From Roseateles hydrophilus (GTDB lineage Bacteria > Pseudomonadota > Gammaproteobacteria > Burkholderiales > Burkholderiaceae_C), in assembly GCF_026712245.1 (NCBI RefSeq), contig NZ_JAPPUY010000002.1, positions 620,001 to 684,000 of the forward strand: a stretch of DNA of 64,000 nucleotides, in the 5' to 3' direction. The notes below the pieces were generated by a model. It worked only from the letters and a program-made list of their open reading frames with translations. It did no database searches and was not told where the DNA came from. How positions within the stretch are numbered: the stretch's first letter is position 1; every line of letters starts with the position of its first letter. A program made the translations under genes and the position numbers. Shown piece after piece: positions 3,987 to 33,245 of this stretch.

Positions 3987-5090
3987 TCAGTCGCTGCGCA
4001 TGGCGCCCATGATGGCGGCCAGCAGGGCGCCATCCAGTACGCGGCCGGTTGCCCGGTCGAACAGCGCGAAGCCCTCGCGCTTGTCGAACACGCCGTTGTC
4101 CCAGTACACCGGCACCAGCCCGCGCCGGTGGGCGGCGCGCGTCACGTACGCATTCCAGTCGGCGCGGTAGCGCGCCGCACCGGGCTGCGACGGGCGTGCC
4201 ACGGCGCCGTATTCGCCCAGGATGACGGGCACGCCCCGGTCCACGAATCGGACCTTCATCTTGTCGAACTGCCGGTCCACATGGGCCTCATCACCCCAGC
4301 CGGCGGTGGCCTTGGCAGTCGTCGCGCCGCGCCCCCATTGCCAGACCTGGCCCTCGTTGTTCAGCGTGAACTCGTAGGGGTCGTAGTAGTGCACTTCCAT
4401 CATCAGCCGGCCCGGTGTGGGGTCGGCGGGCAGCACGGCGAAGTCCACCGTGTGGTCGATGTTGGTGTTGAAACCCTGCACGATGAGGTGGCGGCGCGGG
4501 TTGTGGCCGCCGGTGGCGCGCACCGTGCTCACGAAGGTCTGGTTGAAGCTGTTCTGCACCTTCACGTACTCGGCACTGGGCTTGCCGTAGTCGCCTTCCA
4601 CCATGACCTCGTTCGTGCCGGCGAACAGCAGGCCTTCGTCGTGGTCCTTGAAGTGCTCGGCGATCTGCGTCCAGTACAGCGCGAGGCGGCGGTTCACCTC
4701 GGCCTGGTGCCGGGCCGTGGGCTGCATCCAGCCGCCGTCCCAGTGGATGTTGATCATGACGATGAGGCCAGCCTCGCGCGCCCAGCCCACCACCTCGGTC
4801 ACGCGGGCCATCCACTCGGGCTTGATGCGGCCTTGCGCATCGGTGTACTGCTGCCAGGCCAGCGGAATGCGGATGGACTTGAAACCGGCGGCCTTGACGG
4901 CCTGGATGAGCGGGCGCGTCGTGCGCGCATTGCCCCAGGCCGTCTCGCCGCCAATGGCCTCCATCGAGTTGCCGAGGTTCCAGCCCGGCGACATCTCGCG
5001 GGCGAGTTCGGTGCTGCTGACCTCGCGCCAGGCGCTGGCCTGCGCCGCCAACGAGGCGAGCGTGAACAGTAGGGTGACAATGAATTTCAT
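3987..5090 (-). CDS. GH5 endo-beta-1,4-glucanase/xyloglucanase (GH5_4-like)
   Basis: This is a 367-residue secreted enzyme that hydrolyses internal beta-1,4-glucosidic bonds of cellulose-type backbones. A signal peptide (residues 1-20, ASA cleavage) precedes a single catalytic TIM barrel. GWNLGNSMEAIGGETAWGN at 36-54 and INIHWDGGW are subfamily-4-type blocks. Glu161 in GTNEVM is the predicted acid/base and Glu293 in LGEYGA the nucleophile. It is closely related to the next upstream gene (shared HLIVQGFNTNIDHTV), so the pair arose by tandem duplication, but this copy lacks the extra N-terminal module. It is the last gene of the minus-strand array. Xyloglucanase specificity is inferred from the alpha-xylosidase, fucosidase and galactosidase in the same locus. 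Confidence 0.9.
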   Translation of the reverse strand: MKFIVTLLFTLASLAAQASAWREVSSTELAREMSPGWNLGNSMEAIGGETAWGNARTTRPLIQAVKAAGFKSIRIPLAWQQYTDAQGRIKPEWMARVTEVVGWAREAGLIVMINIHWDGGWMQPTARHQAEVNRRLALYWTQIAEHFKDHDEGLLFAGTNEVMVEGDYGKPSAEYVKVQNSFNQTFVSTVRATGGHNPRRHLIVQGFNTNIDHTVDFAVLPADPTPGRLMMEVHYYDPYEFTLNNEGQVWQWGRGATTAKATAGWGDEAHVDRQFDKMKVRFVDRGVPVILGEYGAVARPSQPGAARYRADWNAYVTRAAHRRGLVPVYWDNGVFDKREGFALFDRATGRVLDGALLAAIMGAMRSD

Positions 5091-5117
5091 GGGGCTCTTC
5101 TCTTGGGGGGCGAGGAA

Positions 5118-5139
5118 GGCCGGGCGTCTTGGCCCGGCC
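5118..5139 (-). other. Intercistronic stem-loop between two GH5 genes
   Basis: GGCCGGGC and GCCCGGCC form an 8-bp stem around a 6-base loop in the 57-base gap between the two GH5 genes. Only short pyrimidine runs follow on the minus strand, so this may be a weak terminator or attenuator, or an mRNA-protecting hairpin. Confidence 0.45.
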
Positions 5140-5147
5140 CCGCACGA

Positions 5148-6530
5148 TCACTTGGCCGCGTTCACGACGGCGCTGACCAGGCCGGGGTGAACCTGTGCGC
5201 CGCTGCTGCGGTCGAACAGGCCCATGCTGTGGTTGGCGTTGGGCGAGCCGGCGTCCCACCAGACGGGCACGGCGCCGCGTGTCCAGGCCGCGCGGGCGAC
5301 GTAGCGCGTCCAGTTCGTGCGGTAGGTTTCGGCGCCTGCGTACTGCGTGCGGCGGATGGCGCCGAACTCACCCAGGATCACCGGCACGCCGGCATCGACG
5401 AAGCGGGTCTTCATCTTCTGGAACTGGGCATCCACGAACGCCTCGTTGGCCCAGCTTTCGGTGTTGGCGGCGCTGGTGGCGGCGGCGCCCCATTGCCAGA
5501 TCGTGCTGTTCTCGTTGAGGGTGAAGTTGTAGGGGTCGTAGAAGTGGACTTCCATCATCAGCCGCTTGGTGGCGGTGTCATTCGGCAGCGTGGCGAAATT
5601 GACCGTGTGATCGATGTTGGTGTTGAAGCCCTGCACGATCAGGTGGCGGGCCAGGTTGCCGCCGCCGGTGGCACGCACCGCGTTGACGAAGGCCTGGTTG
5701 AAGCCGTTCTGCACCGTGTAGTACTCGACGGTGGGCGTGCCGTAGTCGCCGTCCTTCATGACCTCGTTGGTGCCGGCGAACAGCAGCGTGTCGTCGTAGC
5801 CCTTGAAGTTGTTGGCGATCTGCGTCCAGAACTTCGTGATGCGCGCATTGGCCAGCGCCTGGTTGGCATAGGTGGGCTGCATCCAGCCGCCGTCCCAGTG
5901 GATGTTGATCATCGTGTAGAGGCCGGCGTTCTTCGCGTAGTTGACGACCTGGGTCACGCGGCTCATCCAGGTGGCGCTGATGTTGTCGTTGCCGTCGGCG
6001 TACTGCTTCCAGGACACCGGGATGCGCACGGTCTTGAAGCCGGCGGCCTTGACGGCGTTGAACAGTGCCTGCGTGGCCGGCGGATTGCCCCAGGCGGTCT
6101 CGCCACCGATGGCCTCCAGCGAGTTGCCCAGGTTCCAGCCCGCACCCATCAGCTTGGACAGCTGCAGGCTGGTCAGGTCGCGCATGCCGGGTACGGTGAT
6201 CGTGAAGGCCTGGGTGGACTTGGCGCCGCAGCTGTTGGTGTAGGTGGCCGTCGCCGTGCAGCTGTGCTTGGCGGTGAGGGCCTGCTCGCGCGCCGTACCG
6301 CTGGCACCGCAGCCGCTCCAGGCCCAGCTGCCGCCGGCCGTGGGCTGCGGGCCCAGGCTGACCGTGCTGCCGGCCGCCGCGGTGGCCGTGGCGCTGTTGC
6401 TCCAGGCGGCCGTGCCGACCTTGAGGTAGGGCTTGATGGCGGTGGCCGTGCAGGTCTGTGCAACGGCCTGCGTTTGCGCGGCCAGCGCGAGTGCCAGCAG
6501 GCACAGGGAGGTTCTGAGGGGCGATGTCAT
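5148..6530 (-). CDS. Modular GH5 endo-beta-1,4-glucanase with N-terminal beta-sandwich module
   Basis: This is a 460-residue secreted enzyme. The signal peptide ends near residue 24 (AVAQ). Residues 25-113 form a Cys-containing, Ser/Thr/Gly-rich module (PYLKVGTAAWSNSAT, then VSLGPQPTAGGSWAWSG) that looks like a small beta-sandwich, perhaps a carbohydrate-binding domain; I cannot name its family. Residues 118-460 are a GH5 barrel with Glu256 (GTNEVM) as acid/base and Glu388 (LGEFGA) as nucleophile. The ATG at 6530 is preferred over 6542 because GGAG sits six bases before it. It has one close paralogue downstream. It probably attacks the beta-glucan backbone of xyloglucan outside the cell. Confidence 0.88.
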   Translation of the reverse strand: MTSPLRTSLCLLALALAAQTQAVAQTCTATAIKPYLKVGTAAWSNSATATAAAGSTVSLGPQPTAGGSWAWSGCGASGTAREQALTAKHSCTATATYTNSCGAKSTQAFTITVPGMRDLTSLQLSKLMGAGWNLGNSLEAIGGETAWGNPPATQALFNAVKAAGFKTVRIPVSWKQYADGNDNISATWMSRVTQVVNYAKNAGLYTMINIHWDGGWMQPTYANQALANARITKFWTQIANNFKGYDDTLLFAGTNEVMKDGDYGTPTVEYYTVQNGFNQAFVNAVRATGGGNLARHLIVQGFNTNIDHTVNFATLPNDTATKRLMMEVHFYDPYNFTLNENSTIWQWGAAATSAANTESWANEAFVDAQFQKMKTRFVDAGVPVILGEFGAIRRTQYAGAETYRTNWTRYVARAAWTRGAVPVWWDAGSPNANHSMGLFDRSSGAQVHPGLVSAVVNAAK

Positions 6531-6611: not shown

Positions 6612-6633
6612 ACCTCGATGCTCGGGGGCGCGC

Positions 6634-7422
6634 TCAGCGCCGGCGGCGCCAGGCCAGCGCGGCCAGGCCCAGTGCCAGCAGGACGGCGGAGGCCGGTTCA
6701 GGCACCGGCGCGGCGGACAGCACCTGCGCCGATGTCAGCAGCGTGATGCGGGCCACGGCCGTGTCGGTCGATGGGTTGTCCCAGCTGACCGACAGCGTGC
6801 TCGGGCCCGTGTAGGCGAACGAGAAGCCCGGGGCGTCGATGGCCTGGGCCTCGGCGTTGACGAAGCCGGCACCATTGCTGTTCTGCCAGAGGCCCAGCGT
6901 TGCGAGGGCCATGGCTGTGCCGCCCTGGCCGGCTGCAGAGAGACTGTCCAGCGTCATCGTGACCACCACGCGGGTGCGCCCGCCGACCATGAAGGCGGCG
7001 TCCCACAGCCGTGCGGTGGCGGTGGCCACTTCACCGTTGCTGGCGCTGGCGAACGAGCTGGCGGCGCCGGCGCTGCTCAGGTCGCCGCCGGTGAAGCTGA
7101 CGCTGGCGCTGGCCGAGGAGAGACCGTGGGCAAGGGCGGCCTGGCGGTTGGTGCCCAGCCAGCCTTGCTCACCGTCCAGCAAGTCGGCATCGGTGAGCTG
7201 CGCCGTGACGCCGGTGGACTCGCCGGTGGCTGGCCAGCCGGGGCCGGTGTTCTGCACCAGCCAGGGCCAGGCGCCGGTGATCCACGGCTCGGCATCCAGC
7301 GCCACGGTGGACACCACGACGTTGGAGATGCTCACCTGGGCGGTGGCGGCTTCGGCGGCATGTGCCGCTGGGCTGGTCATGCCCAGGACGAGGGTCAGGG
7401 CGGCGAAGAGGGCTTGTCTCAT
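6634..7422 (-). CDS. PEP-CTERM sorting-domain protein of unknown function
   Basis: This is a 262-residue exported protein with a signal peptide (residues 1-22) and a classic C-terminal sorting tail: VPEPASAVLLALGLAALAW followed by a run of Arg. That tripartite tail (PEP motif, membrane helix, basic end) directs processing by exosortase in PEP-CTERM systems, usually linked to exopolysaccharide or surface structures. The central part is Ala/Ser/Thr-rich beta-type sequence with no catalytic motif I recognise. It lies between two GH5 genes on the same strand, 32 bases from the upstream one, so co-transcription is likely. No exosortase gene is in the window. A surface adhesin or matrix protein used while growing on polysaccharide is a guess. 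Confidence 0.82.
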   Translation of the reverse strand: MRQALFAALTLVLGMTSPAAHAAEAATAQVSISNVVVSTVALDAEPWITGAWPWLVQNTGPGWPATGESTGVTAQLTDADLLDGEQGWLGTNRQAALAHGLSSASASVSFTGGDLSSAGAASSFASASNGEVATATARLWDAAFMVGGRTRVVVTMTLDSLSAAGQGGTAMALATLGLWQNSNGAGFVNAEAQAIDAPGFSFAYTGPSTLSVSWDNPSTDTAVARITLLTSAQVLSAAPVPEPASAVLLALGLAALAWRRRR

Positions 7423-7454: not shown

Positions 7455-8687
7455 TCAGCGGGCGCCGTCCATCAGCGCCGTCAGCACGGGGGCGTCCAGC
7501 ACCTGGTTGCGGCTGCGGTCCAGCAGGCCGCCGGTGTCCCAATAGAAGGGCACCAGGCCTGCTGCCCGCGCGCGTTGCGTGACGGCCTTGCAATAGGCAG
7601 CGCGGCTCTTCCGATGCAGGGCCAGCGCGTCGCCGGTGAGCGTGTTGCTGCGGTCCAGCGCGCCGTACTCGCCGACGATGACCGGGATGCCCCGGTCGAT
7701 GAAGCGGGCCTTCATCAAGCCCATCATGGTGTCCAGCGTGGCTTCCTCGCCCCAGGTGGGGTTGTGGGCGGTGTCGGTGGCGGAGTGGTTGCCCTGGCCC
7801 CAGTAATAGAACTGGTTGCCCCAGCTCTCGTCCTTGGTCATGCCGGTGAAGTTCCACGGCGTGTAGTAGTGGATCTCGGCCATCAGCCGACCGGCCACGG
7901 TGTCGGTGGGCCAGCCGGTCATCAGCTGGCTCGTCAACTCCACATCGGTGGACGGGCCCTGCACGACCAGCGTGCGCCAGGCATTGCGCCCGCCGGTGGC
8001 GCGCACGGCGTCAATGAAGGTCTGGTGGTAGCTCATCAGCACCGCCATCTGCGCGGCGGTCTTGACGTTGGGCTCGTTGGCGCTGGCGAAGAGCAGCCGG
8101 CCGTCGAAGTCGCGCAGCGTCGTGGCGATCTGCTGCCAGAAGGCCCGCTGCCGGTGGTTGACCGCCACCTGCTGCTCGGGCGTGACGTTCTCCTCCAGCC
8201 AGCCGCCGTCCCAGTGGATGTTGAGCACCACATGCAGGTCGGCGTCCAGACAGTACTGCACCACCTCCCGCACGCGGGCCAGCCAGGCGGCCTCGATGCG
8301 GGCGCTGCCGGCGTCGGCGTACTGGTTCCACGAGACGGGCAGGCGCACGGCGTTGAAGCCCGAGGCTTTGGCGAACTGCACGAACTCGCGCGTGATGCGC
8401 GGGTTGCCCCAGTAGGTCTCGGTCTTGCCGCCAACGGCCTCCAGCGTGTTGCCGATGTTCAGCCCGATGCGCAGCTTCTGCGCGATCTGCTGGGCGTTGT
8501 CGGCCATGCCGGTGGCATCGGCGGCCTTGGGGCTGGTGTTGTAGTCGGGGTAGGGCGAGGCGGCGGTCGGTGGCGGTGCCGGCGCGACGGCGGCCGGGGT
8601 GCTGGCCGAGGCCCCGCCACCGCCGCCACCGCCGCCGCAGCCGGCCAGCCCCGCCAGCAGGCTCAGGGCGGCGTCGCGGCGCCTCAT
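7455..8687 (-). CDS. GH5 endo-beta-1,4-glucanase lipoprotein
   Basis: This is a 410-residue lipoprotein glucanase. RRRD near the start and a lipobox LAGC with Cys17 indicate export (possibly by Tat) and lipidation. A Gly run and a Pro/Ala linker reach residue 46. With Gly after Cys it should reach the outer membrane. The barrel carries GLNIGNTLEAVGG, LNIHWDGGW, Glu205 in ASANEPN (acid/base) and Glu340 in IVGEYGA (nucleophile). It is more divergent than the two other GH5 proteins in this array. Its ATG overlaps the stop of the GH39 gene (ATGA). Surface-bound endo-xyloglucanase cutting polymer into importable oligosaccharides is the likely role. Confidence 0.89.
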   Translation of the reverse strand: MRRRDAALSLLAGLAGCGGGGGGGGASASTPAAVAPAPPPTAASPYPDYNTSPKAADATGMADNAQQIAQKLRIGLNIGNTLEAVGGKTETYWGNPRITREFVQFAKASGFNAVRLPVSWNQYADAGSARIEAAWLARVREVVQYCLDADLHVVLNIHWDGGWLEENVTPEQQVAVNHRQRAFWQQIATTLRDFDGRLLFASANEPNVKTAAQMAVLMSYHQTFIDAVRATGGRNAWRTLVVQGPSTDVELTSQLMTGWPTDTVAGRLMAEIHYYTPWNFTGMTKDESWGNQFYYWGQGNHSATDTAHNPTWGEEATLDTMMGLMKARFIDRGIPVIVGEYGALDRSNTLTGDALALHRKSRAAYCKAVTQRARAAGLVPFYWDTGGLLDRSRNQVLDAPVLTALMDGAR

Positions 8688-10258: not shown

Positions 10259-11853
10259 GCGGCGAGTCCTCGGTAGCTGAAGTTGCGGGCGCGCACCTCG
10301 CCAGCCCCGGCGCTGAACAGCGCAGGCCGCAGGCTGACGAAGCCGCCGAACACGTTGTGATGCAGGCCGGAGACCTCCATCTGCCAGGGGTGCTGAGTCC
10401 AGGTGCCGCCGCCGTCGTGGCTGACGTGCCAGGTGACGATGTGCTCGCGGTTGACGAGGCGGATGCGCACGCGGCGCGTGCCCGTCGTGGCGGGGAGCGG
10501 CTCGCGCATCCATGCGTGTTCCTGGCCGTAGCCATAGGTCAGCATTTGCGTGGCGCTGAAGCCCAGGCCGACATGGCCGCGTTCCTCGTAGAACAGTGCC
10601 AGGCCGCCGTGGCCGTCGCCGGTGATCTCCAGGTCCACCGTGACCTCGTAGCTGCGGTCGCCGCAGGCGCAGGTCAGCGGCGAGCTGTCCGGCAGCGCGC
10701 GGCCCTTGCCGCGGATGACCAGGGACTTGTTCTCGAAGCGCAGGCGCCGGGCTTCGTCTGGCCCCGGTGCATGGAAGGCCCATTGCAGGCCGAGCCTGCC
10801 CGAGGAGAAGTCATCAGACAGTGCAAAACCTGCCGGGCTCGGCTGGCCGCCGCGCGGCTTGGGCAGTGGCCGGTCCAGCGTGCCGCCCTTGGCGCGCAGC
10901 CAGCCGTCGGCGGTCCATTCGACCGGCTCCAGCAGCGCCTGGCGGCCCAGCGTGCGAAAGCCGTTTTCGTAGCCGTGATAGACCATCCACCAGTCCCCCG
11001 CCGGTCCTTCGACGACGGTGGCGTGGCCGCGCGACCACCAGGGCTCGTCGATGCTCGTCGTGCGCACGATGGGGTTGTTGGGTGCGTCCTCCCACGGCCC
11101 ATGCACGGAGCGTGAGCGCGCGACCGTGACCATGTGGCTGGTGGGCGGCCCGGCGGTGCCGCCGACGGCGCTGATCAGGTAGAACCACGCGCCGCGCCGG
11201 AACAGCTTGGGGCCCTCGGGCGCGAACATCTCGACCACCCAGTCCTTGGGGTACTGCCAGGGCGTCCAGGCGTTGTCCTGCAGCGGGCCGTCGGTGGCGA
11301 GGCCGTCGTCGCTCAGCCGCACGCGGCGGCCGCCGTTGACGAAGAGGTAGCGCCGGCCGTCCTCGCCCACCACGTGGCCGGGGTCGATGCAGCCGGGGAT
11401 CTTCAGGTCGATGGGCGCGCTCCACGGGCCACGGATGTTGTCCGCATGGATGACGTAGATGCCGGTGCCGGCGTCCTGCAGCACCGGGATGTAGAGGTAG
11501 TAGCGGCCGGCGTGCTTGATGAGGTCCATCGCCCAGACCGTACCGATGGGCTGGTGCAAGGCGGCGGTGATGGGCGTCCAGTTCACCAGGTCCTGCGAGT
11601 GCCAGATGACGGCACCCGGGTAGGACTGGAAGGACGAGAAGGTCATGTAGTAGTCGGCCCCGTCCTTCAGGATGGTGGGGTCGGCATGGTCACCGGCGAC
11701 GATGGGGTTGAGGTAGGTCCCGTTGCCGAGGTCGGCCGTGCGCTGGCCCTCGATGCCCGCCCCTGAGCGTGGCGCGGCGAGCGCCGGTGCGGCCGCGGGC
11801 AGCGCCGCGCCGGCCAGCGCCGCCTGCATGGCCCTGCGTCGGGAGAGTGTCAT
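10255..11853 (-). CDS. GH43-family beta-xylosidase/alpha-L-arabinofuranosidase
   Basis: This is a 532-residue exported enzyme with a Tat-like leader (TLSRRRAMQAALAG) cleaved near residue 27. The five-bladed propeller has the three acidic residues expected for GH43: Asp in AGDHADPTIL, Asp in GCIDPGHVV and Glu in APEGPKL. A second domain from about residue 340 (DDFSSGRLGLQW onward) matches the concanavalin-like beta-sandwich found behind many GH43 catalytic domains. The enzyme would remove terminal xylose or arabinose in the periplasm. It is translationally coupled on both sides (ATGA overlaps with the GPH permease upstream and GH39 downstream). Arabinofuranosidase and xylosidase activities cannot be separated by sequence inspection. 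Confidence 0.88.
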   Translation of the reverse strand: MTLSRRRAMQAALAGAALPAAAPALAAPRSGAGIEGQRTADLGNGTYLNPIVAGDHADPTILKDGADYYMTFSSFQSYPGAVIWHSQDLVNWTPITAALHQPIGTVWAMDLIKHAGRYYLYIPVLQDAGTGIYVIHADNIRGPWSAPIDLKIPGCIDPGHVVGEDGRRYLFVNGGRRVRLSDDGLATDGPLQDNAWTPWQYPKDWVVEMFAPEGPKLFRRGAWFYLISAVGGTAGPPTSHMVTVARSRSVHGPWEDAPNNPIVRTTSIDEPWWSRGHATVVEGPAGDWWMVYHGYENGFRTLGRQALLEPVEWTADGWLRAKGGTLDRPLPKPRGGQPSPAGFALSDDFSSGRLGLQWAFHAPGPDEARRLRFENKSLVIRGKGRALPDSSPLTCACGDRSYEVTVDLEITGDGHGGLALFYEERGHVGLGFSATQMLTYGYGQEHAWMREPLPATTGTRRVRIRLVNREHIVTWHVSHDGGGTWTQHPWQMEVSGLHHNVFGGFVSLRPALFSAGAGEVRARNFSYRGLAA

Positions 11854-14746: not shown

Positions 14747-14838
14747 CGGGGTTTCCTCGTTAGGCCATAGAGCGGGCAACAGGCCCGCGGCGGCGCGAGG
14801 AATATAGGTGGCAGGGTTTCGCCCGGTTTCACGGCAGG

Positions 14839-24654: not shown

Positions 24655-24668
24655 TGTCAGCGTTGTCA
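24655..24668 (-). promoter_or_regulatory. Candidate LacI-type operator upstream of the TonB receptor
   Basis: On the minus strand this reads TGACAACGCTGACA, matching 12 of 14 bases of the perfect palindrome TGACAACGTTGTCA found before the GH9 gene. It lies between the xylA terminator and the receptor start, where a promoter for the receptor operon must be. No LacI-family gene is present in the window. Confidence 0.45.
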
Positions 24669-24733: not shown

Positions 24734-26047
24734 TCAGGCGCAGAGGCGGTTGACGAGGTTCTCCAGCACTTCCTGGCGGCCGGAGACGGGCGCGATGTCG
24801 ACGTTCTTGGCCAGCACCTCGTCGGCCAGCTCGCCCAGCGTGCGGCGGCCGCCCAGGATGTCCTGGCCAGCGGGCGTGTCCCAGCCGGCATAACGCGCAT
24901 CCTTGGCGGCTTGCAGCCGGCCGTCGTTGATCATCTTTTCGGCGATCAGCAGCGCCTGGGCGCAAACGTCCATGCCGCCGATGTGGCCGTGGAACAGGTC
25001 GGCCGCGTCGATGGACTGGCGGCGCACCTTGGCGTCGAAGTTCAGGCCGCCCGAGCCCAGGCCGCCGGCCTTCAGCACCTCGTACAGCGCGATGGCCGTC
25101 TCGGGCACGTTGTTGGGGAACTGGTCGGTGTCCCAGCCCAGCTGCGGGTCGCCGCGGTTCATGTCCAGGCTGCCGAGGATGCCCAGGGCGCCGGCGGTGG
25201 CGATCTCGTGCTCGAAGCTGTGGCCCGACAGCGTGGCGTGGTTGGCCTCGATGTTGACCTTCACTTCCTTTTCCAGGCCGTAGCGCACGAGGAAGCCGTA
25301 GACGGTGGCGGTGTCGAAGTCGTACTGGTGCTTGGACGGCTCGCGCGGCTTGGGCTCGATGAGGATGGCGCCCTTGAAGCCGATCTTGTGCTTGTACTCG
25401 ACCACCATGTTCAGGAAGCGGCCCAGCTGGTCCAGCTCCTGGCCCAGTCGTGTGTTCAGCAGGGTTTCGTAGCCCTCGCGGCCGCCCCACAGCACGTAGT
25501 TCTCGCCGCCCAGCGCGAGCGTGGCGTCCATCGCATCGCGCACCTGCAGCGCGGCCATCTTGAAGATCTCGGGGTCGGGGTTGCTGGCCGCGCCCGACAT
25601 GAAGCGGCGGTGGCTGAACAGGTTGGCCGTGCCCCACAGCAGCTTCACGCCGGTGGCCTGCTGCTTGGCCGCCAGCACGTCGACGATGCGCTTGAAGTTG
25701 TCCTGGCTCTCGCGCGGCGTGGCGCCTTCGGGGGCCACGTCGCGGTCGTGGAAGCAGTAGTAGGGCGCGCCCAGTTTGGCGAAGAACTCGAAGGCCGCGT
25801 CGGCCTTCAGCTTGGCCAGTTCCATCGGGCTGCCGCCCTGGAACCAGGGGCGCTCGAAGGTGGCGCCGCCGAACGGGTCCAGCCCGGTCCAGACGAAGTT
25901 GTGCCAGTAGCAGACGGCGAAGCGCAGGTGGTCTTCCATGCGCTTGCCCAGGACGATGCGGTCCTTGTCGTAGTGCTTGAAGGCCAGGTCGTTGGGGCTG
26001 TCGGCGCCCTCGAAGCGGATGGCGGGGATGTGGTCGAAGTAGCTCAT
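24734..26047 (-). CDS. xylA: Xylose isomerase
   Basis: This is a 437-residue cytoplasmic enzyme converting D-xylose to D-xylulose, of the class II length. Diagnostic blocks are [12 protein letters not shown] (catalytic His100, Asp103), [17 protein letters not shown] (metal-binding Glu), [15 protein letters not shown] (metal site) and [19 protein letters not shown]. Divalent metal (Mg or Mn) is needed in this family. It follows xylB by 12 bases and is the last gene of the xylRBA unit. It handles xylose released by the GH31 alpha-xylosidase and possibly by GH39/GH43, which ties the locus to a xylose-rich polymer such as xyloglucan. Confidence 0.97.
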
Positions 26048-26059: not shown

Positions 26060-27514
26060 TCATGCGCCGCGCAGGCGGGCGTACAGGTCACGGAAGCGCG
26101 CCAGGCGTGGGGCCAGGCGGGCATGGCGTTCGGGGTCGGGCGTGTGGCGGGCCGACAGCGCGGGGCGGGTGCAGACAGCCTCGACGCTGCCACCGGCCGC
26201 CAGCCAGCCCAGGCGGGCGGCGCCCAGCGCGCCACCCGCCTCGCTGCCGGCGTGCACGACGATGTCCACGTTCAGCGCATCGGCGATCAGCTGCGCCCAG
26301 TAGGGGCTGCGTGAGCCGCCGCCCACCAGCGAGAGCTGGCTCACCTCGGTGCCGGCCGCGCGCAGCGCGTCCAGCCCGTCGGCCAGGCCGAAGGCCACGC
26401 CTTCCAGCGCGGCATAGGTGCAGTCGGCGCGCGTGGTGGCGGCTTTCAGGCCGTGGAACACGCCGGGCGCGAAGGGGTCGTTGTGCGGCGTGCGCTCACC
26501 GGCCAGGTAGGGCAGGAAGAGGGGCGCGCGGTCGTTGACTGCGTTGTCATCGCGCGCCAGCTCGGCCAGCAGCGTGCTCTCGTGCTGGCCCACGAGCTGG
26601 CAGAACCAGCGCAGGCAGCTGGCGGCCGACAGCATGACGCTCATCTGGTGCCAGCGCTGGGGCAGCGCATGGCAGAAGGCATGCACGGCCGAGGCCGGGT
26701 TGGGCCGGTAGCGGTCGTTGACGACGAACAGCACGCCCGAGGTGCCCAGCGAGATGAAACCATCGCCCGGCGCCGTGGCGCCGATGCCGATGGCGCTGGC
26801 CGCGTTGTCACCGGCGCCGCCGGCCACGATGACGTCCGCGCCCAGGCCCCAGGCTTGTGCCAGCTCGGGGCACAGCACGCCGCTGGGTTCGCTGGCCTCC
26901 ACGAGACGCGGCATGTGGGCGCGCGTGAGGCCGGTGGCGGCCAGCAGCTCGTCGGACCAGTCGCGCCGGGCGACGTCCAGCCACAGCGTGCCGGCCGCGT
27001 CGGACGGGTCGGACACCTTGTCGCCGGTCAGCTGCAGGCGCAGCCAGTCCTTGGGCAGCAGCACGCTGGCCACGCGCGCGAAGACGTCGGGCTCGTGCTT
27101 CTTCACCCACAGCAGCTTGGGCGCGGTGAAGCCGGGCATGGCGAGGTTGCCGGCGATGGCGTGCAGGGTCGGTGCGGCGGCTTCCAGCTCGGCGCATTCG
27201 GCATGGCAGCGGCCATCGTTCCACAGGATGGCCGGGCGCAGCACGGTGTCGGCCCCATCCAGCAGCACGGCGCCGTGCATCTGGCCCGACAGGCCGATGG
27301 CGCGCACCTGCGCGAACGCGTCCGGGTGCGCCGCGCGCAGCGTGGCCACGGCGGCCTGCGTGGCGGCCCACCAGTCGGCGGGCGCCTGCTCGGACCACAG
27401 CGGCTGCGGGTTGGCCAGCGTCAGCGTGCTGCCGGCGCTGCCGACAGTGCGGCCGCGGCCGTCCAGCAGCAGCAGCTTGACTTCCGAGGTGCCGAGATCA
27501 ATGCCGAGATACAT
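26060..27514 (-). CDS. xylB: Xylulokinase
   Basis: This is a 484-residue FGGY-family sugar kinase that phosphorylates D-xylulose with ATP to xylulose 5-phosphate. MYLGIDLGTSEVKLLLLD is the N-terminal ATPase phosphate motif. GLSGQMHGAVLLD, LWNDGR and the C-terminal domain with GGGSRSPYWAQLIAD and EAGGALGAARLG are xylulokinase hallmarks. The start ATG at 27514 shares a base with the xylR stop (TGATG), so translation is coupled to the regulator. Product enters the pentose phosphate pathway. Confidence 0.96.
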   Translation of the reverse strand: MYLGIDLGTSEVKLLLLDGRGRTVGSAGSTLTLANPQPLWSEQAPADWWAATQAAVATLRAAHPDAFAQVRAIGLSGQMHGAVLLDGADTVLRPAILWNDGRCHAECAELEAAAPTLHAIAGNLAMPGFTAPKLLWVKKHEPDVFARVASVLLPKDWLRLQLTGDKVSDPSDAAGTLWLDVARRDWSDELLAATGLTRAHMPRLVEASEPSGVLCPELAQAWGLGADVIVAGGAGDNAASAIGIGATAPGDGFISLGTSGVLFVVNDRYRPNPASAVHAFCHALPQRWHQMSVMLSAASCLRWFCQLVGQHESTLLAELARDDNAVNDRAPLFLPYLAGERTPHNDPFAPGVFHGLKAATTRADCTYAALEGVAFGLADGLDALRAAGTEVSQLSLVGGGSRSPYWAQLIADALNVDIVVHAGSEAGGALGAARLGWLAAGGSVEAVCTRPALSARHTPDPERHARLAPRLARFRDLYARLRGA

Positions 27515-28740
27515 CAGAGGGCTTCCTCAGCCAGGGGCAGTCCCGTGTCTGCCAGCGGCAGGGCGGGGCGGGTGAGTCGGTAGCGGGCCAGCGCGGCCGC
27601 GCCCACCGCGACGGCGTTGGCGCCGAAGCGCGAGGTGCGCACGGTGGGCGGCGGCAGGCCGGCCGCGGCGGCGTAGTCGTTCAGCGCGTCCAGCGCGGGC
27701 CGCAGGAAGGGCTGGCCCAGCTCCACCACCGAGCCGCCCAGCACGATGCAGCCGGGGTCGTAGGCGGTGGCCAGGTTCTGCAGCAGTACGCCCAGGTAGC
27801 GGCCGGCGGAGGCCACGGCCTTCAGCGTCTCGGGGTCTTCGTCCACCAGGTGGGCGCGCACCTCGGCCAGCGAGCGCAGCACGGGCTCGCCGTCGCTGCC
27901 GCCGAGCATGGCGCGGGTGGCGATCAGCGCCTCGGCGCAGCCGCGCCGGCCGCAGGAGCAGCGCGGCCCGCCCAGCTGCAGCACCATGTGGCCCACCTCG
28001 CCGGCAAAGCCCCGGCTGCCGGTCAGCAGCCGGTCGCCGACGATGACGCCCGCGCCCAGGCCCTGATTGATGGAGACGTAGAGCAGCGGGTCGGAGCCGG
28101 GCGCGGGGTTGAACTCCATCTCGCCCAGGGCCGCGACGTCGGCCTCGTTCTGGATGAACAGCGGCACGCCGGCGAGCAGGCTGTCCTGCAGTTTGTCGGC
28201 CAGCAGCTCGCCGACGGCGACGTCGCGCCAACCCAGGTTGGGGGCGAAGTGCAGCACGCCGCGCGCCTCGTTCACACCGCCGGGCAGGCCTACGCCGATG
28301 CCGAGGATCTGCTGGCTGGCGTCCAGCTGCTTGCGCACCTTCAGCAGTGCGGTGGCCAGCGTGGCCATGCAGGCCTTGGCCGTGCGGCTGGCGCCGTAGT
28401 TGGCCGCCGCGCAGGCCAGCACCTCGCCGGTCAGCGAGGTGGCGACCACGCGCACGGACTCGATGCCCACCTCGGCGCCCAGCAGCAGCAGCCGGGCCGG
28501 GTCGACGAACAGCGGCGTGGGGCGGCGGCCCAGGTCGCCGGTGGCGACGACCTCGCGCTCCGCCAGCCAGCCCTCTGCCACCAGCTCGCGCACCAGCAGG
28601 CTGACGGTGGACTTGGTCAGACCCACGGCCCCGGCCAGGTCGGCCCGGGACAGGCCCGGGTTGGCACAGAGGTGCCGCACCAGCGCCATGCGATTGATGA
28701 CCTTCAGCAGCTGCTGGCTGCCTGCGGTTTCGGGCTGCAC
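27514..28740 (-). CDS. xylR: ROK-family xylose repressor
   Basis: This is a 408-residue regulator with an N-terminal winged helix (NPGLSRADLAGAVGLTKSTVSLLVRELVAEGWL) and a ROK sugar-kinase-like domain. The ROK zinc motif is visible as CSCGRRGCAEAL, preceded by GFAGEVGHM. Such proteins (XylR of Bacillus and others) repress xylose genes until xylose binds. GTG 28740 is chosen because AGGAG stands seven bases upstream; the longer in-frame frame runs into the GH31 upstream region. The gene leads xylB and xylA and diverges from the alpha-xylosidase gene. A 25-bp dyad lying exactly on its own predicted promoter suggests autoregulation. Confidence 0.92.
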   Translation of the reverse strand: MQPETAGSQQLLKVINRMALVRHLCANPGLSRADLAGAVGLTKSTVSLLVRELVAEGWLAEREVVATGDLGRRPTPLFVDPARLLLLGAEVGIESVRVVATSLTGEVLACAAANYGASRTAKACMATLATALLKVRKQLDASQQILGIGVGLPGGVNEARGVLHFAPNLGWRDVAVGELLADKLQDSLLAGVPLFIQNEADVAALGEMEFNPAPGSDPLLYVSINQGLGAGVIVGDRLLTGSRGFAGEVGHMVLQLGGPRCSCGRRGCAEALIATRAMLGGSDGEPVLRSLAEVRAHLVDEDPETLKAVASAGRYLGVLLQNLATAYDPGCIVLGGSVVELGQPFLRPALDALNDYAAAAGLPPPTVRTSRFGANAVAVGAAALARYRLTRPALPLADTGLPLAEEAL

Positions 28741-28792
28741 GTGTTGTCTCCTGTGGTGCCTCGGGAGGCGAGGTGCTCCGAGGTTTTTGGCC

Positions 28793-28821
28793 ATATTAGT
28801 TCGGCCGTCGCACGAAGTAAA
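28793..28821 (-). promoter_or_regulatory. Predicted xylR promoter with overlapping XylR-type operator
   Basis: On the minus strand TTTACT (28816-28821) and TAATAT (28793-28798) are 17 bases apart, a plausible sigma-70 promoter. The dyad TTAGTTCG (28796-28803), nine bases, CGAAGTAA (28813-28820) spans both hexamers with one mismatched pair. Its 25-bp length and TTAGTT...TAA ends resemble XylR operators described in Bacillus. It is also the only AT-rich element before the divergent GH31 gene, so it may control both directions. Confidence 0.6.
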
Positions 28822-28975: not shown

Positions 28976-31258
28976 ATGAAGTTCACTGACGGACAGTGGA
29001 TGCTTCAGCCGGGCGTCGCCGCGCACTACGCGGCCGAGGCCTATGCGGTGCAAGCCCACGCAGACCGACTTGTCGTGCTCGCCACGACCCGCCCCATCAA
29101 GCACCGTGGCGACACGCTGCAAGGCCCCACGCTGACCGTGACGCTGAGCTCGCCGCTGCCCGGCGTCATCCGCGTCAGCGTGGAGCACTACACCGCCTCC
29201 ACGCCGCCGCGCCTGCACATTCCCATGGTCGGCGCGCAGGCCGCGCCGGTGCAGATCACCGAGACCGACACGCATGCGCGGCTGAGCTCGGGCGCGATCT
29301 CGGTGGAGGTCAAGAAGGGCGAGGGCTGGAACCTCGTCTTCCGCGAGGGCGATCGCATCCTCACCAAGAGCGACTGGCGCAGCCTGGGCTACATCCAGTG
29401 GGGCGACAAGGGCAACCACGTGCATGAGCAGCTCACGCTGGGCGTGGGCGAGAACGTCTACGGCCTGGGCGAGCGCTTCACGCCCTTCGTCAAGAACGGC
29501 CAGGTGGTGGAGAACACCAACAAGGACGGCGGCACCGCCTGCGAGCAGGTCTACAAGAGCGTGCCCTTCTACCTGACCAACCGTGGCTACGGCGTGTTGG
29601 TCAACGAGGCCGGCCCGGTGTCCTTCGAGGTCGGCTCGGAGAAGGTGGCCCGCGTGCAGTTCAGCCGCGAGGGCGAGAGCCTGGACTACTGCGTCATCGC
29701 CGGCCCCACGCCCAAGGATGTCGTGTCCCGGTTGACAGCGCTGACGGGCCGCGCCCCGCTGCCGCCGGCCTGGAGCTTCGGCCTGTGGCTGACGACCTCG
29801 TTCACGACGCAGTACGACGAGGCCACGGCCACGCACTTCATCGACGAGATGAAGCGCCGCGAGCTGCCGCTGTCGGTCTTCCACTTCGACTGCTTCTGGA
29901 TGCGCGAGTTCCAGTGGTGCGACTTCGAGTGGGACCGCCGCGGCTTCCCCGAGCCCGAGGCCATGCTGCAGCGCCTGCATGCCAAGGGCCTGAAGATCAG
30001 CTTGTGGATCAACCCCTACGTGGCGCAGAAGTCACCGCTGTTCGCCGAAGGCGTGAAGCACGGCTACTTCATCAAGCGCACGAACGGTTTGACCTTCCAG
30101 ACCGATCAGTGGCAGCCCGGCATGGCCATCGTGGACTTCACGAACCCCGCCGCCAAGGCCTGGTACCAGGGGCATCTGCGCCGCCTGCTGGCCACTGGCG
30201 CCGACTGCTTCAAGACCGACTTCGGCGAACGCATCCCGAGCGAGGGCGTGCAGTACTTTGACGGCTCCGACCCCGTCGAGATGCACAACCTCTACGCGCT
30301 CCAGTACAACGAGGCGGTGTTCGAGCTGCTGCAGGAAGTGCAGGGCAGCGATGCCATCGTGTTCGCGCGCTCCACCTACGCGTCGGGTCAGCGCTTCCCG
30401 GTGCACTGGGGCGGCGACTGCTGGAGCACGTTTGAATCGATGGCCGAGAGCCTGCGCGGCGGCCTGTCGCTCACCAGCTGCGGCTTCGCGTTCTGGAGCC
30501 ACGACATCGGCGGCTTCGAGGGCAACCCGCCGCCGGCCGTCTACAAGCGCTGGATCCAGTTCGGCCTGATGTCCTCGCACAGCCGCCTGCACGGCAGCAG
30601 CTTCTACCGTGTGCCCTGGCTGGTGGACGAGGAGAGCTGCGACGTGCTGCGCGTGTTCACGCGCCTGAAGCACCAGCTCATGCCCTACCTCTACGCCAAG
30701 GCATTCGAGGCCACGCAGACCGGCGTGCCGCTGATGCGCGCCATGCTGTTGGAGCATCCGGACGACCCGGCCTGCGCGACGCTGGACCGCCAGTACCAGC
30801 TGGGCGAGAGCCTGCTGGTGGCGCCGGTGTTCACCGAGAGCGGCGAGGTGGAGGTCTACCTGCCCGCGGCCCAGGGCTCGGGCGTCTGGACCCACCTGCT
30901 CAGCGGTGAGAAGAAGGCCGGCGGCCGCTGGGTACGCGAGACGCATGGCTTCCTGAGCATGCCGCTGTACGCCGCGCCGGGCAGCGTCATCCCCTGGGGC
31001 GCCGAGACCGAGAAGCCCGACTACGACTACGCCCGTGGCACCGTGCTGCGCGTGTTCGAGTTGGCCGACGGCGCCAGTGCCGACTTCACGGTGGTGAGCC
31101 TGGATGGCCAGGTCGCGGCGCGTGGCCGCGTCAGCCGCGCCGGTGGCGAGTACCTCGCGCAGGTCAGCGAGGGTGCGCTGCACGACTGGGCGCTGGACGT
31201 CGACGGCCGCCGCAGCCCGGTGCTGGCCGAAGGCCGGGAGCTGCGCTGGGGCGCCTGA
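28976..31258 (+). CDS. yicI: GH31 alpha-xylosidase (YicI/Xyl31A type)
   Basis: This is a 760-residue cytoplasmic enzyme (no signal peptide) that removes alpha-1,6-xylose from the non-reducing-end glucose of xyloglucan oligosaccharides. Sequence and spacing follow E. coli YicI closely. FHFDCFWMREFQWCDFEWD, the nucleophile Asp415 in CFKTDFGERIP, acid/base Asp481 in HWGGDCWSTFESM and WSHDIGGFEG are all present, one residue off the YicI numbering. Its promoter region is shared with xylR, so expression probably responds to xylose. A strong terminator follows. With the cytoplasmic GH1 enzyme it would dismantle imported oligosaccharides to xylose and glucose. Confidence 0.95.
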   Translation: MKFTDGQWMLQPGVAAHYAAEAYAVQAHADRLVVLATTRPIKHRGDTLQGPTLTVTLSSPLPGVIRVSVEHYTASTPPRLHIPMVGAQAAPVQITETDTHARLSSGAISVEVKKGEGWNLVFREGDRILTKSDWRSLGYIQWGDKGNHVHEQLTLGVGENVYGLGERFTPFVKNGQVVENTNKDGGTACEQVYKSVPFYLTNRGYGVLVNEAGPVSFEVGSEKVARVQFSREGESLDYCVIAGPTPKDVVSRLTALTGRAPLPPAWSFGLWLTTSFTTQYDEATATHFIDEMKRRELPLSVFHFDCFWMREFQWCDFEWDRRGFPEPEAMLQRLHAKGLKISLWINPYVAQKSPLFAEGVKHGYFIKRTNGLTFQTDQWQPGMAIVDFTNPAAKAWYQGHLRRLLATGADCFKTDFGERIPSEGVQYFDGSDPVEMHNLYALQYNEAVFELLQEVQGSDAIVFARSTYASGQRFPVHWGGDCWSTFESMAESLRGGLSLTSCGFAFWSHDIGGFEGNPPPAVYKRWIQFGLMSSHSRLHGSSFYRVPWLVDEESCDVLRVFTRLKHQLMPYLYAKAFEATQTGVPLMRAMLLEHPDDPACATLDRQYQLGESLLVAPVFTESGEVEVYLPAAQGSGVWTHLLSGEKKAGGRWVRETHGFLSMPLYAAPGSVIPWGAETEKPDYDYARGTVLRVFELADGASADFTVVSLDGQVAARGRVSRAGGEYLAQVSEGALHDWALDVDGRRSPVLAEGRELRWGA

Positions 31259-31277
31259 CCCCGCGCATCGCGATGCC

Positions 31278-31315: not shown

Positions 31316-31459
31316 CGTGCCGCTGGGCGCGGGGACGCCGAGCCTCGCCGCCAGGTCGCCCCGTCCTCCCGTGCTCAACCCGTCGCCATGGATGGATCAC
31401 CCGTCAACACGCCGCGCACCTTTCTCGCGCCCTGGGCAATCACCCCAATGTCCAGCCGC

Positions 31460-31473
31460 TGACAACGTTGTCA
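31460..31473. promoter_or_regulatory. Perfect LacI-type palindrome before the GH9 gene
   Basis: TGACAACGTTGTCA is a perfect 14-bp palindrome with a central CG, the form typical of LacI-family operators in proteobacterial sugar loci. It ends 14 bases before the GH9 ATG. A 12/14 match stands upstream of the TonB receptor gene at 24655. No LacI gene is in the window, so the regulator would act from elsewhere. Confidence 0.6.
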
Positions 31474-31487
31474 AAATTTCGCTCGCC

Positions 31488-33245
31488 ATGAAGAAATCCT
31501 CCCTCCGAGCTGCCCCGCTGCGGGCGTCCCTGATCGCCTGCGCGCTGGCCGCTGCCGCGGCCGGCACGGCCTCGCGGGCTGCCGCCGCCCAGCCGGGCGA
31601 TGCCGCCGTCAACCAGCTGGGCTACCTGCCCGGCGCTGCCAAATGGGCCGTGCTGCCGGCGGCGGCCGGAGGCGAGTTCCGCGTCGTGCGGGCGGGCAGC
31701 GACAGCGTCGTGCTGCGCGGCGCCACCGGCCCGGCCCGGCGGTGGGCCATGTCCGGCACCGAGGTGCGCCTGGTTGACCTGTCCGCGCTGACCGCGCCGG
31801 GCGACTACGAGCTGCGCGCCGACGGCCAGGCCCCGGTGCGCCTGCGCGTGGCGCCCGACGCCTATGCCGCGCTGACGGCCGGGGTGCTCAAGGCCTTCTA
31901 CTTCAACCGCGCCAGCATTTCGCTGGACGCTCGCCACGCCGGCCCCTGGGCCCGCCCGGCCGGCCACCCGGACACCGAGGTGCTGGTGCATGCGTCCGCC
32001 GCGAGCGCCCAGCGCCCCGAGGGCACGCGGCTGTCCGCGCCCAAGGGCTGGTACGACGCGGGCGACTACAACAAGTACATCGTCAACTCCAGCATCACCG
32101 TCTACACGCTGCTGGCGGCCTACGAGCAGTTCCCGGCGCTGTTCAAGGCGCAGCACCTCAACATCCCCGAGAGCGGCAATGCGCTGCCCGACGTGCTGGA
32201 CGAGGTGCTGTGGAACCTGGACTGGATGCTGGCCATGCAGGACCCGGCGGACGGCGGTGTCTACAACAAGCTCACCAACCTGGGCTTCGACGGCAACGTG
32301 ATGCCGCACCAGGCGGTGGGCCCGCGCTATGTGGTGGCCAAGGGCACGGCGGCGGCGCTGGACTTCGCCGCCGTGATGGCCCATGCGAGCCGGGTGTTCA
32401 AGCCGTTCGACGCACAACGGCCTGGGCTGTCGGCGCGCCTGCGTGATGCGGCCGTCGCCGCCTGGCAATGGGCGCGTGCGAATCCGCGCGTGGTGTTCAA
32501 GAACCCGCCCGATGTGCGCACCGGCGAGTACGGCGACGACAAGCTCGACGACGAGTTCGCCTGGGCCGCGGCCGAGCTCTTCCTCACCACCGGCGACGCT
32601 GCCTACCGCGACGCGCTGAAGCTGGAGGCGCAGCCCATCCGCGTGCCCAATTGGGGCGATGTGCTGGGCCTGGCCTGGATGAGCCTGGCCCAGCACCGTG
32701 ACCAGCTCGCCAAGGCCGATGCCGAGCTCGTCACGCGCCGCGTCGGCGACTTCGGCCGCCAGCTCGCGGCCACCTGGCAGGGCTCGGCCTACCGGCTGAC
32801 GATGGAGTCTGCCAACGACTTCGTCTGGGGCAGCAACTCGCAGGCGCTGAACCAGGCGCTGATGCTGATCCAGGCCTACCGCCTCGGCGGCGAGCGCGCG
32901 CAACTGGACGCAGCGCAGTCGGTACTGGACTACGTGCTGGGCCGCAACCCGCTGGGCATGAGCTATGTGACCGGCTTCGGCCAGCGTTCGCCGCTGCACC
33001 CGCACCACCGCCCGTCCGAGGCCGACGGCGTGGATGCGCCCGTGCCCGGCTTCCTGGTCGGCGGCCCCAACCCCGGCCAGCAGGATCAGCCGCACTGCCC
33101 CGTGCGTTATGCGTCCAAGCTGCCTGCGCTGTCCTACATCGACCACGGCTGCAGCTACGCCGCCAACGAGGTCGCGATCAACTGGAACGCACCGCTGGTG
33201 TACGTGTCGGCGGCGATCCAGGCGCTGACGCCGCCCTCACGCTGA
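31488..33245 (+). CDS. GH9 endoglucanase/cellodextrinase
   Basis: This is a 585-residue exported glucanase. The basic, Ala-rich leader ends near residue 34. An N-terminal immunoglobulin-like domain (VNQLGYLPGAAKWAVL to about residue 120) is the CelD-N module common before GH9 barrels. The (alpha/alpha)6 catalytic domain has GWYDAGDYNKYI near residues 187-198, supplying the Asp general base pair. It ends with SYIDHGCSYAANEVAINWNAPLVY, whose Glu is the predicted proton donor. Enzymes of this layout hydrolyse cellulose or cello-oligosaccharides. A LacI-type palindrome lies just upstream; no obvious Shine-Dalgarno precedes the ATG. The permease gene starts 34 bases downstream. Confidence 0.92.
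   Translation: MKKSSLRAAPLRASLIACALAAAAAGTASRAAAAQPGDAAVNQLGYLPGAAKWAVLPAAAGGEFRVVRAGSDSVVLRGATGPARRWAMSGTEVRLVDLSALTAPGDYELRADGQAPVRLRVAPDAYAALTAGVLKAFYFNRASISLDARHAGPWARPAGHPDTEVLVHASAASAQRPEGTRLSAPKGWYDAGDYNKYIVNSSITVYTLLAAYEQFPALFKAQHLNIPESGNALPDVLDEVLWNLDWMLAMQDPADGGVYNKLTNLGFDGNVMPHQAVGPRYVVAKGTAAALDFAAVMAHASRVFKPFDAQRPGLSARLRDAAVAAWQWARANPRVVFKNPPDVRTGEYGDDKLDDEFAWAAAELFLTTGDAAYRDALKLEAQPIRVPNWGDVLGLAWMSLAQHRDQLAKADAELVTRRVGDFGRQLAATWQGSAYRLTMESANDFVWGSNSQALNQALMLIQAYRLGGERAQLDAAQSVLDYVLGRNPLGMSYVTGFGQRSPLHPHHRPSEADGVDAPVPGFLVGGPNPGQQDQPHCPVRYASKLPALSYIDHGCSYAANEVAINWNAPLVYVSAAIQALTPPSR

Follow-up and report, generated by a model that had tools for sequence, protein, structure and literature searches.

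A probable xyloglucan utilisation locus of Roseateles hydrophilus with predicted cytoplasmic finishing steps

Gene content and organization of the locus

The analysed DNA is a 64,000-nt stretch from Roseateles hydrophilus (GCF_026712245.1, contig NZ_JAPPUY010000002.1, positions 620,001-684,000, forward strand), hereafter the window. It carries at 3987-35303 a block of genes that, judged from its gene content, is quite probably a xyloglucan utilisation locus (XyGUL) of a Roseateles/Pelomonas-type bacterium, and our explanation of it includes finishing steps in the cytoplasm. Families were assigned by Pfam gathering scores, NCBIfam cut-offs and relatives in the Protein Data Bank (PDB), and gene starts were taken from the N-termini. 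The host genome comprises 4.77 Mb in 13 contigs and is 98.7% complete. The closest relative of its compact GH35 protein (86% identity) belongs to a Roseateles sp. metagenome-assembled genome (MAG), and the best GH35 relatives are found in Roseateles/Pelomonas; an earlier note on this DNA was thus correct in calling it betaproteobacterium-like. The genes of the block are as follows.

3987..5090, minus strand: GH5 (a), Pfam GH5 172.9 bits; Sec-like leader; predicted endo-xyloglucanase; best PDB rows 5OYC, 6HA9, 3ZMR, 2JEP
5148..6530, minus strand: GH5 (b), Pfam; Sec-like leader; ~110-aa N-terminal extension; best PDB rows 5OYC, 3ZMR, 6HA9, 2JEP
6634..7422, minus strand: PEP-CTERM protein, Pfam PEP-CTERM 28.5 bits (cut-off 20.7)
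7455..8687, minus strand: GH5 (c), lipobox-like LAGC at the leader end, probable lipoprotein; predicted endo-xyloglucanase; 5OYC (cel5D) 496 bits
8684..10258, minus strand: GH39, Pfam; Tat-like leader SRRQVIAAAAA; predicted beta-xylosidase; PDB 4M29/4EKJ beta-xylosidase 711 bits
10255..11853, minus strand: GH43 with GH43_C2, Pfam; Tat-like leader; predicted alpha-L-arabinofuranosidase
11850..13271, minus strand: MFS_2 / GPH-like permease, Pfam MFS_2 232 bits (cut-off 27); predicted importer of trimmed oligosaccharides
13289..14746, minus strand: GH1 with Tat-like leader RRRQLFAAAALAPAATLA, Pfam; predicted periplasmic beta-glucosidase
14839..16197, minus strand: GH1 without leader, start MTALTYSSPFPADF; NCBIfam BGL 516 (cut-off 478.5); predicted cytoplasmic beta-glucosidase
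16219..17496, minus strand: Exop_C plus PAF-AH-like SGNH esterase, Pfam; 425 aa; Sec-like leader; predicted xyloglucan acetylesterase
17493..19865, minus strand: GH95, Pfam; Sec-like leader; predicted alpha-1,2-L-fucosidase; FucOB 516 bits, 7KMQ 402 bits
19862..21499, minus strand: compact GH35 (DUF5597 type); Sec-like leader; predicted beta-galactosidase; PDB 3U7V, 8FA4, Bgl35A (5JAW, 4D1I), 7KMN
21556..24540, minus strand: TonB-dependent receptor, Pfam; NCBIfam TonB-Xanth-Caul 642.6 (cut-off 310); predicted oligosaccharide importer
24734..26047, minus strand: xylA, xylose isomerase, NCBIfam TIGR02630 670.8 (cut-off 533); sub-threshold in Pfam
26060..27514, minus strand: xylB, xylulokinase, Pfam FGGY kinase; NCBIfam TIGR01312 578 (cut-off 380)
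27514..28794, minus strand: ROK-family regulator, Pfam ROK plus winged helix; XylR-like by position only, no NCBIfam cut-off passed
28976..31258, plus strand: GH31 of YicI type, leaderless; predicted cytoplasmic alpha-xylosidase; YicI 906 bits in PDB
31488..33245, plus strand: GH9 with CelD_N; Sec-like leader; predicted endo-xyloglucanase; BoGH9A 456.7 bits
33280..34596, plus strand: AmpG-like MFS permease, NCBIfam 2A0125 123.7 (cut-off 350)
34596..35303, plus strand: polysaccharide deacetylase family protein, Pfam

The minus strand runs from xylR (ROK), xylB and xylA through the TonB receptor, GH35, GH95, the SGNH esterase and the leaderless GH1 to the GH1 with the Tat-like leader, the MFS_2 permease, GH43, GH39, GH5c, the PEP-CTERM protein, GH5b and GH5a; the plus strand carries GH31, GH9, the AmpG-like permease and the polysaccharide deacetylase. 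Five adjacent pairs (GH35/GH95, GH95/SGNH, GPH/GH43, GH43/GH39 and GH39/GH5c) overlap by 4 bases, an operon-like arrangement. GH31, GH35, GH95 and the TonB receptor are linked as in Cellvibrio-type XyGULs, with GH31 divergent and across xylRBA, and xylA, xylB and an MFS permease are adjacent as in the Xanthomonas type. Pfam scans of the locus genes yielded no SusD-type family such as the SusC/SusD pair of Bacteroidota XyGULs would provide, nor was a GH74-like gene, as in the Xanthomonas type, found among the scanned genes. All enzymes that the earlier note had named at 3987-33245 are present there, xylA by NCBIfam, GH35 by its PDB relatives and the others by Pfam. Its right-hand boundary fell just short of the AmpG-like permease, and the block is better given as 3987-35303 because this permease and the deacetylase are kept at the locus in all six genus-mates compared.

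Conservation was judged within the 40-54 kb read for each of these six genomes. The TonB receptor, GH35, xylA, xylR, GH31, the leaderless GH1, the GPH-like permease, GH39, the AmpG-like permease and the deacetylase are present in 6/6, and xylB, GH95 and GH9 in 5/6. The SGNH esterase and GH43 are each found in four, any GH5 in three and the PEP-CTERM protein in one. A gene that we take from its motif to be GH74-like, and that passes no curated family, lies between GH35 and GH95 in G151. In the three genus-mates inspected for it (G162, G153 and G150; L143-L146, L152), a presumed tryptophan-halogenase-like flavoprotein, named likewise by motif, sits between xylR and GH31; it does not occur in the window.

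Among proteins of known structure, those closest to GH5, GH9, GH35 and GH95 are for the most part enzymes of the xyloglucan type, which points to xyloglucan as the probable substrate, in line with the earlier note. All three GH5 proteins have 5OYC (cel5D), 3ZMR, 2JEP (xyloglucanase) and 4W8A (exo-xyloglucanase) within their six best PDB rows. The earlier note had named GH5s outside xyloglucan-active subfamilies as its refutation; checked at the level of these PDB relatives, the result favours the note. We take 5OYC, 3ZMR and 2JEP to be CjGH5D, BoGH5A and XG5, respectively, and 3ZMR, 2JEP and 4W8A presumably belong to subfamily GH5_4. Membership of the present proteins in GH5_4 was gauged from the relatives 5OYC/6HA9, 3ZMR, 2JEP and 4W8A, without subfamily hidden Markov models; CjGH5D is placed in GH5_4 in the accessible part of PMC11892949. 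The nearest PDB entry of GH9 is BoGH9A, which is named xyloglucan-specific, with 456.7 bits against 281 for the next one, a lead of 175 bits. The compact GH35 matches DUF5597 in Pfam (126.5 bits, cut-off 23) and falls just below the GH35 cut-off (23.7 against 27); because of its PDB relatives, we assign it to the Bgl35A type. We take 7KMN, 7KMQ and 7KMP to be XacGalD, XacAfc95 and XacXyl31, and 3U7V and 4EKJ to be Caulobacter proteins. GH95 has FucOB and a further alpha-1,2-fucosidase as its nearest PDB relatives. For GH43, 6MS3/6MS2 and BoGH43A stand on top of the PDB order, followed by beta-xylosidases.

GH31 types and the proposed cytoplasmic end

The GH31 protein, the sole GH31 in the host genome, shares 54% identity with YicI and scores well above the cut-off of PRK10658, the NCBIfam equivalog for alpha-xylosidase (1144.7 against 606), whereas its matches to the xyloglucan-type xylosidases are far weaker (7KMP 148 bits, Xyl31A 144.5 bits). 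By inspection it has no leader, so the locus differs from Cellvibrio-type XyGULs in lacking an exported alpha-xylosidase. The two GH1 genes stand in tandem (window 13289-16197), the product of one having a Tat-like leader and that of the other no leader, and the same pair occurs in L009, L010 and L062; it looks like a duplicated beta-glucosidase whose products would be sent to two compartments. The AmpG-like permease does not reach the NCBIfam cut-off for the AmpG muropeptide permease (123.7 against 350), and the predicted substrates of both permeases derive from linkage only.

Comparison of the best 80 of 209 loci around GH35 relatives, with at most 10 kb of flank on each side, revealed two alternative designs. 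A distant GH31 (24-29% identity) is found in 44 of the 80 loci, and xyl genes, GPH and GH1 are in view in none of these. The YicI-type GH31 occurs in 13 loci, together with xyl genes in 13/13, GH1 in 12/13 and GPH in 10/13. A further 11 loci have xyl genes, GPH and GH1, with GH31 outside the stretch in view, and in the remaining 12 no GH31 is in view and the accessory set is partial or absent. No locus among the 80 holds both GH31 types. This alternation suggests that exchange of the GH31 type accompanies the gain of the permease, GH1 and xyl genes. The two types also differ at their N-termini: 41 of the 44 distant GH31s have a leader-like N-terminus (two are without and one is cut), compared to none of the 11 YicI-type GH31s with a resolvable start (two of the 13 are cut). 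The distant GH31 of locus L028 has the leader MRFKSIVPAASCLAVMVSGHALA, a DUF5110 domain and, in Pfam, a PA14 match of 23.5, just under the cut-off of 24.

Going by record titles, the distant-GH31 loci come from Duganella, Massilia and further Oxalobacteraceae, from Brevundimonas and further Caulobacterales, from Sphingomonas and from a single contig labelled Pseudanabaena, and the YicI-type loci from Roseateles, Pelomonas, Mitsuaria, Burkholderiales MAGs and one MAG titled Methylotenera. A YicI-type match is present in 16 of 20 genus genomes including the host's own, in some as fragments only. Among 150 family genomes, it is confined to the host and three others, with any GH31 match in 24. In G030, G155, G156, G157 and G164, GH31 appears as numerous fragments that are nearly identical and frequently lie at the ends of contigs; the assembly may have broken at repeated copies, or several copies may have arisen recently.

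The SGNH esterase and the joining of its homologues to GH74

The model of the esterase (predicted local distance difference test score, pLDDT, 89.3) consists of two domains. Structural similarity search using Foldseek revealed that the N-terminal domain resembles ExoP domain X (3F95) and the C-terminal domain PAF acetylhydrolase (1WAB, 34% identity); CE2 esterases come lower in the list and superpose poorly (root mean square deviation ~18). According to the accessible part of PMC8245568, CE20 enzymes are of ~640 aa, with an SGNH core interrupted by an inserted domain and a beta-sandwich at each end. Assignment of the esterase to CE20 was rejected on architecture, as its ExoP-like domain is followed by a single uninterrupted SGNH domain; the name CE20 is also absent from the 15 phmmer matches and the 50 Foldseek rows listed for it. 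Residues S249, D399 and H402, which from SGNH motifs we take to be the catalytic triad, are invariant in all 42 aligned sequences.

The esterase gene occurs in 42 of the 80 loci, namely in 22 of the 27 with xyl genes and in 13 of the 44 of the distant-GH31 design, as far as the flanks allow. A homologue (E 1e-20) is found in 14 of 299 family genomes, in three of them over the SGNH part only. In 28 Oxalobacteraceae genomes (27 searched, and L056 included by its locus), outside the window, the esterase runs into a GH74 domain in 18; in six Massilia genomes a GH74 is present but the stretch examined lacks the esterase motif, and four have no GH74 match. Curated families (NCBIfam, plasmid annotation) give no GH74 name. 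The assignment was made by fold, on a model whose confidence is moderate (pLDDT 68): GH74 or xyloglucan-specific enzymes fill the first 24 PDB rows, with NkGH74 at 47% identity. No other finding speaks as strongly for a role of the esterase in xyloglucan use as the joining of its homologues to a GH74 xyloglucanase.

In seven of the 18 joined genomes, the esterase and GH74 lie in one frame of 1118-1160 aa, with a joint of four codons and no A run. The other 11 all show the joint G[T/C]AAAAAAAAACG, its A run being nine long without exception, and a frame break (L034 1451, L036 1396, L041 2289, L049 1396, L050 1410, L056 1317, L059 1363; also L111-L120). If the count starts at the codon G[T/C]A, the esterase frame meets a TGA after 8 codons and the GH74 frame has no stop for 630-645 codons, both in 11/11. 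Across 630 codon columns of the GH74 frame, position 1 is variable at 187, position 2 at 146 and position 3 at 473, a pattern typical of translated genes. Outside the tract, lysine codons of these genes are AAG in 544 cases and AAA in 145, and in each of the seven 21.6-kb loci inspected no other run of A or T reaches a length of 8.

We propose the A9 joint of these Duganella-clade genomes as a candidate programmed slippage site. The spacing of four residues seen in the in-frame relatives would be regained exactly if the RNA carried an additional A, or if ribosomes shifted by -1 on A AAA AAC. As a precedent, an archaeal alpha-L-fucosidase is made via -1 frameshifting on A-AAA-AAT, as described in the accessible part of PMC8037382; no case of bacterial GH74 recoding was among the matches listed in the open-access literature. 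Re-initiation is an alternative to slippage, because an ATG of the GH74 frame overlaps with the stop codon of frame 0, and the eleven genomes are related, though diverged (the GH74 frames of the nine others searched are 81-92% identical to that of D. rivi). A hairpin GGTGTCC..GGACACC lies 23 bases past the tract in 11/11; its presence also in the in-frame fusion L124, one of six folded, weighs against the hairpin as cause of a frame change. The Duganella genes may offer a natural system for asking why one esterase-xyloglucanase gene would give two products.

Proposed pathway, alternatives and flanking features

We propose the following pathway. The exported GH5 and GH9 enzymes, judged by their nearest relatives, would cut the xyloglucan backbone, and the TonB receptor would bring the oligosaccharides to the periplasm, by analogy with Cellvibrio and Xanthomonas. 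In this compartment, acetyl groups would be stripped by the SGNH esterase, fucose by GH95 and galactose by GH35, and GH43 and GH39 may remove arabinose- and xylose-type decorations. The core XXXG-type oligosaccharide could then cross the inner membrane by the GPH-like permease, the AmpG-like permease or both, as their conserved linkage suggests. Its cytoplasmic breakdown would proceed from the non-reducing end, with GH31 of the YicI type and the leaderless GH1 acting alternately; XylA and XylB would process the xylose, and glucose would enter central metabolism. The combined reading has three parts: in this Gram-negative pathway de-xylosylation would have moved from the periplasm to the cytoplasm through the GH31 swap, permease and GH1; the esterase would represent an undescribed carbohydrate-esterase family; and A9 slippage in a Duganella clade would give the esterase alone plus the fusion. 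For and against this combination the balance is, in our judgement, even.

Known systems are compared on the accessible parts of their reports. The Xanthomonas XyGUL (X. citri XAC1768-1777; PMC8245568), for which periplasmic breakdown is proposed, shares with the present locus a TonB receptor, GH35, GH95, GH31, an acetylesterase, nearby xylA/xylB and an MFS permease. It differs in its GH74 endo enzyme, two receptors, CE20, a four-domain GH31 with PA14 and no linked beta-glucosidase in the part consulted, compared to three GH5s plus GH9, one receptor, the Exop_C-SGNH esterase, a leaderless YicI-type GH31, two linked GH1s, two permeases, and linked GH43 and GH39 in Roseateles. The Cellvibrio japonicus XyGUL (xyl31A, bgl35A, tbdr, afc95A; PMC4285296) has the same GH31/GH35/GH95/receptor linkage and the compact GH35 type. 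There, oligosaccharides are broken down in the periplasm by GH35, GH95 and the membrane-bound CjXyl31A, whereas the Roseateles GH31 is leaderless; endo-xyloglucanases and esterases are given as unlinked in Cellvibrio (PMC8245568). The earlier note had taken Cellvibrio as its model; the linkage bears this out, but it is not the only model, since an acetylesterase and, next door, xylA/B and an MFS gene are already described for the XyGUL of Xanthomonas (PMC8245568). The E. coli yicJ-yicI pair likewise sets YicI, of which the Roseateles GH31 is an orthologue (54%), beside a GPH-family permease, without a receptor or other xyloglucan enzymes adjoining, and the Roseateles permease is 25% identical to YicJ. 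Ruminiclostridium cellulolyticum has a Gram-positive-type cell. Its xyloglucan cluster shares the cytoplasmic finishing by alpha-xylosidase and beta-glucosidase but uses an ABC importer, cytoplasmic galactose removal by GH42, and GH3 in place of GH1 (PMC4780118).

XyGUL-like clusters of individual Massilia and Pelomonas strains are named in PMC11892949 as exceptions with co-localised endo-xyloglucanases, with no analysis of them in the text consulted and their function being called hard to predict; these are probably of the same cluster type as the Roseateles locus. A search of the open-access literature for xyloglucan and Roseateles turned up only work on chitin degradation, and the cytoplasmic design was not met in the literature searched. 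The existence of such a cluster had thus been noted in part. In the Cellvibrio and Xanthomonas models, as far as accessible, oligosaccharides are described or proposed as dismantled in the periplasm. If the sole alpha-xylosidase is cytoplasmic, large oligosaccharides would have to pass the inner membrane through a permease made of a single polypeptide; if true, less free sugar would be lost to neighbours. The locus yields two named transporters and a predicted esterase as assay targets.

Several observations weigh against the proposed pathway. The GPH-like permease scores 178.9 against the NCBIfam gph cut-off of 231.35, and its identification as a YicJ orthologue was rejected at only 25% identity; on both counts its substrate is a guess. 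In Xanthomonas, deletion of the linked MFS gene left growth on oligosaccharides unaffected, and xyloglucan failed to induce a XyGUL-like cluster of Flavobacterium, which shows that conclusions from gene content alone may be wrong (PMC8245568 and PMC11892949, respectively). Leaders were called by eye and a hydrophobicity rule, not by SignalP, and of the distant GH31s only that of L028 went through Pfam, with its PA14 match below cut-off. As the YicI-type loci come from one Burkholderiales group, the alternation may be a single evolutionary switch. Moreover, some glucose may be released in the periplasm because of the GH1 with a Tat-like leader and four GH3s elsewhere in the host genome, unlinked to the locus. 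The earlier note had put the release of both xylose and glucose in the cytoplasm: for xylose this agrees with the leaderless sole GH31 and its alternation with the exported type, but the release of glucose may not be exclusively cytoplasmic.

The smaller cargo isoprimeverose (or cellobiose-type pieces) might cross the inner membrane instead, the outer part of the system still serving xyloglucan and GH31 acting on the disaccharide only. GH31 action of this kind is known for XylPQ of Lactobacillus and assumed for YicJI, and the present GH31 is a YicI orthologue, whose E. coli gene adjoins that of a GPH-family permease. An exo-acting enzyme, for instance one of the GH5s, the GH1 of Tat type or a GH3, would set the disaccharide free in the periplasm, for which the GH1 with a Tat-like leader and the matches of the GH5s to exo-xyloglucanase 4W8A speak. 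We hold this unlikely: the leaderless GH1 is kept with GH31 in 6/6 genus-mates, although isoprimeverose alone would not call for it, the permease is only 25% identical to YicJ, and no isoprimeverose-releasing enzyme was identified. Somewhat less likely still is a fusion of two units, in which the receptor to SGNH genes, GH5s and GH9 would serve fucosylated, galactosylated xyloglucan, and GH43, GH39, GPH and xylAB xylan or arabinoxylan. GH39 is nearest to beta-xylosidases, which also figure among the relatives of GH43, and GH43 is absent from two of the six genus-mates. Yet BoGH43A is among the best GH43 relatives, GH39 (at least 40% identity) recurs in 17 of the 44 distant-GH31 loci, and no GH10/GH11 xylanase is among the scanned locus genes; GH39 is also reported in Flavobacterium xyloglucan loci in the accessible part of PMC11892949. 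A broad degrader of mixed-linkage glucan or cellulose, to which the broad endoglucanases in the PDB lists of GH5 and GH9 would correspond, is very improbable, as GH95, the Bgl35A-type GH35 and an alpha-xylosidase have no evident use on such glucans and GH9 is nearest to BoGH9A by its wide lead. Xyloglucan breakdown with oligosaccharide import and cytoplasmic de-xylosylation is thus the reading that we prefer.

The PEP-CTERM protein, which the earlier note had counted in the locus, is indeed there but accessory by conservation. Among the six genus-mates, a homologue at the same place is found in G162 only (65-67% identity), and a core role was rejected on that basis. Homologues anywhere occur in 9 of 20 genus genomes, own included, with 30-37% identity outside the host and G162. 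Two exosortase genes are present in the host genome, as befits an exosortase substrate.

Concerning regulation, an XylR-ROK operator was looked for and not found. One palindrome was noted:

31460..31473, no strand: palindrome TGACAACGTTGTCA, upstream of GH9; related copy at 24655-24668, upstream of the receptor

With up to 3 mismatches, it has 8 matches in the window against 0.83 expected, several of them inside genes; with up to 1 mismatch, the 80 loci give 25 matches against 0 in reversed sequence, of which only 6 lie within 350 bases upstream of a core gene. Several others seem, from their positions, to encode conserved GH31 and XylB peptides. Many of the receptor promoters scored are without a good copy, and the host genome contains a single site that fits the exact degenerate pattern. 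As a regulatory element, the palindrome is a weak lead.

Beyond the block, a PL4 rhamnogalacturonan lyase lies nearby at window 36401-38002. The region 39805-46851 contains a type I phosphodiesterase, a PhoD-like phosphatase, a TonB receptor, a DeoR regulator and a binding-protein-type permease match just below cut-off, and is perhaps a phosphoester scavenging set. Region 47244-63699, with a galactonate dehydratase (NCBIfam cut-off passed), a large GH35, a TonB receptor, sugar ABC transporter genes, a GH53 endo-galactanase, an SDR and a LysR regulator, looks like a galactan/galactose locus.

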